Below the pieces are notes generated by a model. That model saw only the letters and a list, made by a program, of their open reading frames with translations. It had not been told where the DNA came from and did no database searches. From Phycisphaeraceae bacterium (GTDB lineage: Bacteria; Planctomycetota; Phycisphaerae; Phycisphaerales; UBA1924), in contig JAHBXL010000003.1 of NCBI GenBank assembly GCA_019636495.1, positions 186,001-250,000 on the forward strand: a stretch of 64,000 nucleotides of DNA, read 5' to 3'. Below, piece after piece: positions 58,937 to 60,807 of the stretch. Numbering within the stretch: the first letter of the stretch is position 1; every line of letters begins with the position of its first letter. Both the position numbers and the translations under genes were made by a program.

Positions 58937-58957
58937 GAGCCGGTTACGGGGCGTGCG

Positions 58958-59749
58958 ATGTCCAGCGTTTGGCGCGTAGCTCTAGTCTTGATCGTCGCCG
59001 CGATTGCGTCGTGGCTCGTGGCTGTTGTGTTCGCGCTGTCGAGCAAACCTCAAACGTGGTACGTCGTGAGGGACGTTGAGTCCACCGTGATACGCTCGAG
59101 TATTGGTAACAGCCACTATGGAAGTGCGGAACTGCTCTGGATGGCGTATGCGCGCCAGCTTCGCAATGTCGAGGAGCGTCGCCAGGCTCCCGCGCACTGG
59201 GATCGCCAGACCATCAGAAGATTGAATCAACTGCGGGAGGTTGACAGAGACGTTGTAGGCTACTACGCCTCAGGCTTTCCGTTTCGATGTCTGGGATATG
59301 AGGCCAGATTGGCTAAGGGAACGCCGGGTCGTCCATGGCCGGCCGTGGATTCGAAAGCGGGCATCTTTGAGTGGAACGGTATGGCAGGCAGGTTTGGAGA
59401 TGCGCCGAACGGCTGGTCGATTCGGGCCGAGATCCGCCGAGGATTGGTTGTCGGGCATGATGCATTTGGGGTACCGACTGTCTTGCCGCTCGGAGTTGAG
59501 TGGATCGGAATGGCTCTCAATGTCTTGGTTTACAGCGTCGCGGCGATGGGAAGCGTGCTGCTCGTTCGAGTTGTGCGAAAGGCCCGACGGGATCGAAAGG
59601 GATTGTGCAGGCGATGTGCGTATCCGCGGCCTGCTGGTGCGGAGCGGTGTCCGGAATGTGGGACAAAGTTCGCTAGCCCCACGCGATCGGAACCTGGCGA
59701 AGGGAAGAAGGCAGAAGATGCGGTGGCCTCAAGCGCCGGCCCGGCTTGA
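58958..59749 (+). CDS. Membrane protein with C-terminal zinc ribbon
   Basis: 263 aa. TM1 near residues 7-28, an extracytoplasmic domain of unknown type (about 30-180), TM2 at about 185-205 and then GLCRRCAYPRPAGAERCPECGTKF, a four-Cys zinc ribbon of the type common in planctomycete small membrane proteins (and at the left edge of this window). Lower GC and less biased codons than mutS. Function unknown. Confidence 0.72.
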   Translation: MSSVWRVALVLIVAAIASWLVAVVFALSSKPQTWYVVRDVESTVIRSSIGNSHYGSAELLWMAYARQLRNVEERRQAPAHWDRQTIRRLNQLREVDRDVVGYYASGFPFRCLGYEARLAKGTPGRPWPAVDSKAGIFEWNGMAGRFGDAPNGWSIRAEIRRGLVVGHDAFGVPTVLPLGVEWIGMALNVLVYSVAAMGSVLLVRVVRKARRDRKGLCRRCAYPRPAGAERCPECGTKFASPTRSEPGEGKKAEDAVASSAGPA

Positions 59750-59819
59750 TGGCGAGGGCGGGGGAGAGCAAGTAGCGCTGCCGAGTAGCGAGTGGAACTG
59801 CTGCGGGCTTGTTTCTTCC

Positions 59820-59927
59820 GCCCATGAAATGGGCAAGCGATGGTTGCCAGACGCGGCAGCGTCTGGTGGCGAAAGCAGTTCTCTTTTCCTCATCCATACT
59901 TTGTTCTGTCCGCCCATGAAATGGGCG
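59820..59927. repeat. Palindromes on the left of the TnpA-like gene
   Basis: Two copies of GCCCATGAAATGGGC (59820-59834, 59912-59926; 92 bp apart) and one CCAGACGC-GGCA-GCGTCTGG (59847-59866) preceded by GTTG. They are the inverted counterpart of the units at 60437-60683. Confidence 0.8.
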
Positions 59928-59960
59928 GGCGACTGCACCAGTTGTTGGTAGACTGAGCAG

Positions 59961-60413
59961 ATGCCATCCTCCTGGACACAGAACTACTACCACATGGTGT
60001 TCGGTACTGATCGCCGCGACCCGTGGATCAACGCCGAACTCAAGGACCGTCTCTATCCGTTCTTTGGCGGGATCGCCAAGAGCCTTCGGAGTCAACTCAT
60101 CGCCGGGAACGGGATGCCGGATCATGTTCACTTGCTGATCCGGTTCGCGGCGGATATCGCCCCGGCGGTGCTGGCCCGCGAGGTGAAATCGAGGTCTTCT
60201 GGGTGGATCCATGAGACATTTCCCGCCATGCGCGAGTTCGCGTGGCAACGCGGCTACGGAGGATTCACCATCAGTCGGTCGGTGGTTCCGGAGGTCGAGG
60301 ACGACATCCGGCGGCAGGAAGAGCATCACCGGGGCACGACGTTTGAGCAGGAGTTTCCGATGCTGCTGACCGAGCACGGCATCGACTTCGATCCGGATCA
60401 TCTGTTCGATTGA
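59961..60413 (+). CDS. IS200/IS605-like Y1 transposase, catalytic Tyr apparently replaced
   Basis: 150 aa. HUH motif in GNGMPDHVHLLIRF (His55-His57), then GYGGFTIS and the family C-terminus (DDIRRQEEHHRGTTFEQEFPMLLTEHGIDFDPDHLF). In family members the residue aligned with Asp115 (codon 60303-60305) is the nucleophilic Tyr (Y-I-x-x-Q-E-E-H-H); here it is GAC, one base from TAC. No TnpB partner. Flanked on both sides by inverted palindrome sets. Probably inactive for cleavage, so binding-only or in decay. Confidence 0.8.
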   Translation: MPSSWTQNYYHMVFGTDRRDPWINAELKDRLYPFFGGIAKSLRSQLIAGNGMPDHVHLLIRFAADIAPAVLAREVKSRSSGWIHETFPAMREFAWQRGYGGFTISRSVVPEVEDDIRRQEEHHRGTTFEQEFPMLLTEHGIDFDPDHLFD

Positions 60414-60436
60414 CGAACTCGCCCGCCCATTGCATG

Positions 60437-60683
60437 CCAGATGCTGGCGCATCTGGCAACCATCGCCCGCCCATTTCATGGGCGGGAGACAGAAAGAGGA
60501 GAGGACAGGCGCTTGTCTGTGCTGGCCTTCCAGATGCTGGCGCATCTGGCAACCAACGCCCGCCCATTTCATGGGCGGGAGACAGAAAGAGGAGAGGACA
60601 GGCGCTTGTCTGTGCTGGCCTGCCAGATGCTGGCGCATCTGGCAACCAACGCTCGCCCATTTCATGGGCGGAAGACAGAAGAA
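60437..60683. repeat. Tandem 93-bp repeats right of the TnpA-like gene
   Basis: Units begin at 60437, 60530 and 60623 (exact 93-bp period; third partial). Each has CCAGATGC-TGGC-GCATCTGG with GCAAC flank (head GTTGC on the other strand) and GCCCATTTCATGGGC. A degenerate fourth copy of the first palindrome is at about 60714-60732. Inverse of the left flank. Confidence 0.85.
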
Positions 60684-60763
60684 CAGAGGATGTGGTAGGG
60701 TGTGGCTGCCGGCCAGACGCTGCGCATCTGGCAACCAGCGCAGGCCCGCTTCGCGTGCTGGAT

Positions 60764-60787
60764 GGCAGGCGGGACGCCTGCCCCACC
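60764..60787. repeat. REP-like palindrome of a third family
   Basis: GGCAGGC-GGGAC-GCCTGCC followed by CCACC; on the minus strand this is a GGTGG head plus the palindrome. It ends about 20 bp before the DinB-like gene. Confidence 0.7.
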
Positions 60788-60807
60788 GGATACAGGAAAT
60801 CAGCGCA

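Follow-up and report, generated by a model that had tools for sequence, protein, structure and literature searches.

A Y1 transposase gene with aspartate at the catalytic tyrosine position, flanked by inverted REP-like hairpins in a planctomycete, is probably a recently inactivated copy

The gene tnpA (59961..60413, forward strand) lies in a planctomycete DNA stretch of 64,000 nucleotides, hereafter the window, and encodes an IS200-like Y1 transposase in which an aspartate occupies the position of the catalytic tyrosine. A reading made earlier from the sequence alone (the sequence-only reading) had proposed that the protein is a domesticated regulator that binds DNA but does not cleave it, or alternatively that it is newly inactive. 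Which of the two applies is the question raised by this locus. The analysis favored inactivity: with a probability of roughly 0.75, this is a single-copy, REPtron-like Y1 transposase locus that recently died through a TAC to GAC change, a kind of loss that recurs in the family.

The identification of tnpA as a transposase gene of the Y---Q--HH type was based on the open reading frame, profile matches, and alignment. The frame is open from its ATG to its stop over 150 amino acids, and the protein matched the Pfam family Y1_Tnp (PF01797) with 82.3 bits against a cut-off of 23 and the profile NF033573 with 61.9 against a cut-off of 55. The sequence DHVH was found at residues 54 to 57, where H55-V-H57 forms the HUH motif (codons 55 to 57, at 60123..60131 on the forward strand as counted from the start codon). 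The Y-motif reads Asp115-Ile-Arg-Arg-Gln119-Glu-Glu-His122-His123, and the codon of Asp115 is GAC (60303..60305, forward strand), one base from TAC. The sequence-only reading was thus accurate in describing an intact HUH, a Y-I-x-x-Q motif with Asp115 for its tyrosine, and a frame free of stops and frameshifts. The catalytic tyrosine that characterizes Y1_Tnp and IS200-like TnpA proteins is absent; the gene is a Y1_Tnp member by descent, but probably not by activity, and a protein with Asp115 is probably unable to cleave.

The assignment of residue 115 to the catalytic position was drawn from the alignment, the codon, and an AlphaFold model (mean pLDDT 94.4; monomer), in which this residue is predicted to lie on the helix of residues 106 to 117, as expected for the catalytic helix. 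The active site of IS200 TnpA is shared between two subunits. Foldseek matched the model to structures of the ISDra2, IS608, Sulfolobus, and REP TnpA proteins, including 2xo6, which according to its entry title is the Tyr-to-Phe mutant Y132F of ISDra2 TnpA crystallized with DNA.

Residue 115 was tyrosine in nearly all relatives. A profile search, after 35 more stretches were added, identified 178 distinct domains, three of which did not cover the residue; the remaining 175 carried Tyr (170), Cys (two), His (two), and Asp (one), the Asp being private to the window copy. An initial survey by tblastn, with 139 distinct sequences aligned, had included 133 with Tyr, two with Cys, one with His, one with Asp, and two in which the residue was not covered. 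The codons of the five Tyr-less members (GAC, CAC, CAC, TGC, and TGC) are each one base from TAC, and the HUH motif is also broken (H55R) in one of the His copies, L238. Sporadic inactivation is common in the family, as five further copies carry an in-frame stop. The nearest full-length relatives compared, L206, L048, and L050, are 62%, 61%, and 59% identical to the window copy, and all have Tyr. Outside the planctomycete's own genome, no Asp115 was found among the sequences read, which came from genome contigs (the best 80 of 232 matches, 69 of which form alignment A1 with the window copy), from 101 genomes (matches whose stretches were retrieved), and from 397 genomes of the class (matches with E up to 1e-42); both genome sets include the own genome. 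No relative was found in viral contigs, and 18 plasmid records matched the protein with at most 37% identity among the matches listed. Two tnpA fragments in genome G107 were rejected as a single orthologue and left apart, since they differ in their overlap at residues 47 to 82; the fragment covering residue 115 has Tyr. The sequence-only reading had named one outcome as counting against a regulator, namely orthologues that carry the usual Tyr while the Asp form is not retained, and this was the pattern observed: 170 of 175 members have Tyr, and retention of the changed residue, which would mark domestication, was not seen, although the relatives compared over their full length are at most 62% identical.

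Of the five copies of the Y---Q--HH group encoded by the own genome, three have Tyr at this residue, one has His, and one, the window copy, has Asp; the window copy is the only one of its type. The second Tyr-less copy (L004/L010, C18:25684-26133) has His (CAC) in place of the catalytic Tyr, is about 43% identical, and is otherwise intact. Tyr-less copies account for two of five in this genome versus three of 170 outside it (post hoc Fisher test, p 0.006). This exceeds what evenly spread sporadic loss would give, which speaks against the preferred reading, and the excess may reflect relaxed selection on these enzymes in the lineage.

The rest of the protein is intact. Among 26 columns conserved in at least 90% of sequences, the window copy deviates at 115 alone. 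Across the 167 near-full-length sequences considered (11 of the 178 were partial and left out), 72 had no departure at these columns, 51 had one, and 44 had two or more. Had the protein been free of all constraint since the loss, the lack of change at the other 25 columns would cap the divergence at about 0.12 substitutions per site (5% level), whereas the terminal branch of the window copy measures 0.39; therefore, unless the loss was recent, the protein must have remained under selection. The intact remainder does not favor domestication, because stop-bearing and surely broken copies look alike, with zero to three other departures at the conserved columns. Both a very recent loss and a retained role in binding are compatible with it, recency being the simpler. 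A codon model of nine sequences gave an omega of 0.11 on the window branch versus 0.052 elsewhere, a difference that was not significant (2 x 0.55), and disfavored an omega of 1 on that branch (twice the lnL difference, 4.9; 2 x 2.44), although the model is weak, since its synonymous sites approach saturation and implausible lengths were reached by two of the four control branches. In the dN/dS check suggested by the sequence-only reading, the branch omega is below 1, which fits a retained function too; pairwise dN/dS was saturated, with NG86 giving no dS in some pairs. The nearest full-length relative among the sequences searched is 62% identical, which limits the case for recency.

The gene is flanked by hairpins on both sides. 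Upstream, a double-hairpin REP-like unit (59818..59866, reverse strand) consists of a larger hairpin CCAGACGC/GCGTCTGG, a spacer, and a small hairpin GCCCATTTCATGGGC, as read on the reverse strand, and another small hairpin (CGCCCATTTCATGGGCG on the reverse strand) is located near the start codon at 59910..59931. Downstream, a partial small hairpin of family D4 adjoins the stop codon (60419..60436, forward strand), followed by three tandem 93-bp units (60432..60710, forward strand), each of which contains both hairpins (60437-60485, 60530-60578, and 60623-60671), and by a degenerate fourth unit (60712..60762, forward strand). The layout of a unit is a larger hairpin of the CCAGATGC/GCATCTGG type, a spacer starting with CAAC, and a smaller hairpin of the CGCCCATTTCATGGGCG type, where GTTG precedes the larger hairpin on the opposite strand (the forward strand for the upstream unit 59818..59866). 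CGCCCATTTCATGGGCG with up to three mismatches had nine matches in the window versus 0.57 expected in shuffles, all at five sites of the tnpA locus, four of which match on the other strand too; CCAGATGCTGGCGCATCTGG had four matches in the window versus 0.01 expected. Between the two sides of tnpA, complementarity in inverted order amounts to 88% for a pair of 59 nt and to 100% for one of 23 nt, and the locus hence has two REPs inverted around the gene, as in a RAYT locus or REPtron. The inverted order of the palindrome sets described in the sequence-only reading was therefore confirmed, but the two sides are unequal, the downstream one being composed of three 93-bp units and the degenerate fourth. 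The first of these units shares 97% identity with the second and 69% with the third, and the similarity of the first two indicates a recent local duplication beside a probably inactive transposase.

Flanks were compared at 130 loci, which are the 139 distinct sequences of the first survey minus nine that were partial or lacked 120 nt on both sides. Inverted flanks with a matching score of at least 16 were found at 102 of the 130 loci, versus 10 of 130 with swapped partners. Direct-order matches occurred at 51 of 130, because hairpins that are tandem or self-complementary produce matches in this order as well. The type of unit present in the window also flanks the Tyr-bearing relatives L048, L049, and L053. 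The inverted palindromes are thus the usual arrangement in Tyr-bearing relatives and provide no evidence for a special role. GTAG and GTTG were among the four leading tetranucleotides at the stems, with 30 and 30 of 130 loci upstream and 31 and 24 of 130 downstream (as the reverse complement); TAGC and TTGC, which complete the four, represent these heads shifted inward by one base. Heads of the general form GTNG were found at 62 and 59 of 130 loci, versus 20 and 24 when the opposite strands were read. Among nine distinct units, covariation was observed at pair 6 of stem 1 (T-A, C-G, and G-C) and at pairs 1 (C-G, T-G, G-C, and A-T) and 6 (G-C and A-T) of stem 2, where the nine were chosen for good stems from 15 distinct sets and the count leans towards pairing. 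Inverted double hairpins, many of them headed by GTAG or GTTG, were seen at Y---Q--HH TnpA genes of several phyla, for example at the three relatives above and at L206.

Comparison with known systems placed the protein closest to subclass 1.2 of TnpA Y1, an assignment that rests on the signature, of which Q119 (+4) and H122/H123 (+7/+8) are present and Tyr is missing. As described by Quentin et al. (2018, PMC6006769), this subclass shares with the window copy a length of about 150 amino acids, the DH[u]H motif, the Y---Q--HH spacing, and a low copy number, and differs in its Tyr, which is Asp here. The same paper describes the Y---Q--HH subclass 1.2 as generally lacking the typical terminal structures of IS200, whereas the sampled relatives, many of them from planctomycetes, are bordered upstream and downstream by double hairpins with a GT[AT]G head. 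A literature search on subclass 1.2 TnpA and REP found nothing beyond that paper. In most sampled loci, the Y---Q--HH group has inverted REP-like double hairpins at its flanks, many of them with GT[AT]G heads, which extends the published description. Inverted REPs with heads of the GT-N-G type are a hallmark of RAYT loci in Nunvar et al. (2010, PMC2817692), and RAYTs as described there and in Di Nocera et al. (2013, PMC3733652) resemble the window locus in their inverted REP-like hairpins, GT-N-G head, and few gene copies. The RAYT head is GT[AG]G; the head here is GTTG, and both GTTG and GTAG are leading across the 130 loci. In contrast to RAYTs, the window protein is class 1 like, with Q rather than NP after the Tyr position, and it scored 20.7 bits with the NCBIfam profile REP_Tyr_transpos (NF047646), against a cut-off of 80. 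The window unit also differs in having two unlike hairpins and very few copies outside the locus. The TnpA proteins of IS200/IS605 elements such as ISDra2 and IS608 share the fold and the HUH core, but the window gene differs from them in having no tnpB neighbor, inverted double hairpins on both sides, and one copy of its type in the genome.

The many dispersed cognate REPs typical of RAYTs and REPtrons were not found in the own genome: in 4.08 Mb, the small hairpin occurred eight times with up to two mismatches, five of them at the tnpA locus, and two exact solo copies were located outside it. The unit pattern with two mismatches was too loose for counting, as it gave 21 matches versus 16 in a backward control. 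The Tyr-bearing genomes G101 to G104 contained 4, 1, 12, and 7 small hairpins (up to one mismatch). A low REP copy number was accordingly rejected as a sign of death, given that G101, G102, and G104 also have few.

The neighbors of tnpA are mutS, an open reading frame with no Pfam match, dinB, and trkH. From the mutS stop to the dinB start, the stretch 58937..60807 contains a 263-amino acid open reading frame (58958-59749) and the REP-tnpA-REP unit. This frame has a zinc-ribbon-like C-terminal tail (CxxC...CxxC) and is unrelated to tnpA. The gap between mutS and dinB is 1,871 nt in the window versus 12 nt in G001, a genome of the same genus (identity of 83% along most of mutS and 77% for dinB), where no tnpA, hairpins, or stretch with the 263-amino acid frame was found between the two genes. 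With two genomes compared, the REP-tnpA-REP unit may equally have been gained here or lost in G001.

Several other explanations of the Asp were considered. An enzyme still active through a different nucleophile, either Tyr99 of GYGGF or Asp115 itself, is highly improbable. Tyr99 is present, which lends no direct support; it is not the catalytic residue, because 14 of the 133 relatives that keep Tyr115 have Phe (12) or Gly (two) at residue 99, and the model sets residue 99 just before the strand of residues 100 to 104, whereas 115 lies on the helix. Tyr99 was therefore ruled out as the nucleophile, and the sequence-only reading's choice of position 115 for the active site holds. No HUH enzyme is known to use an Asp as its nucleophile. 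It is also quite unlikely that the Asp is a base error in the draft assembly or a minority variant in an organism that has Tyr: GAC is a single transversion from TAC and everything else is normal, but the frame has no other defect, and the His copy in the same genome has also lost its Tyr, such that the losses are not confined to one base.

A domesticated, cleavage-dead TnpA that binds the GTTG-headed hairpins, for example in self-repression or by occupying REPs near neighboring genes, is unlikely. Consistent with it, the protein has kept the HUH, Gln119, His122/123, and every other strongly conserved column, the branch omega is below 1, the hairpins are intact on both sides, and the ISDra2 mutant structure 2xo6 indicates that binding is possible without the catalytic tyrosine. 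However, Asp115 occurs in no second sequence, the catalytic HUH and Gln should have relaxed if binding alone mattered and yet are intact, the targets beyond the locus are few (the two exact solo small hairpins), and copies broken by stops are equally intact. With Asp in one of 175 members and inverted palindromes normal beside Tyr-bearing genes, the domesticated regulator was not supported, and the alternative of a newly inactive protein is the better reading. For the preferred reading of a recent death, a single-base change from TAC to GAC would have turned the catalytic tyrosine into aspartate, and without the tyrosine the protein would neither cleave nor join single-stranded hairpin DNA, such that the enzyme encoded at the locus could not mobilize it or its hairpins any more. 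The fold and the hairpin-binding surface are probably still intact, and a retained binding role is conceivable. A bolder scenario, which we regard as a long shot, is that a HUH transposase lacking only its nucleophile was kept as a binder of single-stranded hairpins, guarding or silencing the REP-like units that belong to it, and, together with the His copy, would represent a lineage converting REP transposases into binders.

As a single gene, the window copy is of little weight, as it is probably a dead representative of a type of transposase already known. The by-product of the analysis is more useful: the hairpin flanks tie the Y---Q--HH group to REP biology and give testable substrates, and binding assays could make use of the naturally Tyr-less protein that the locus encodes.
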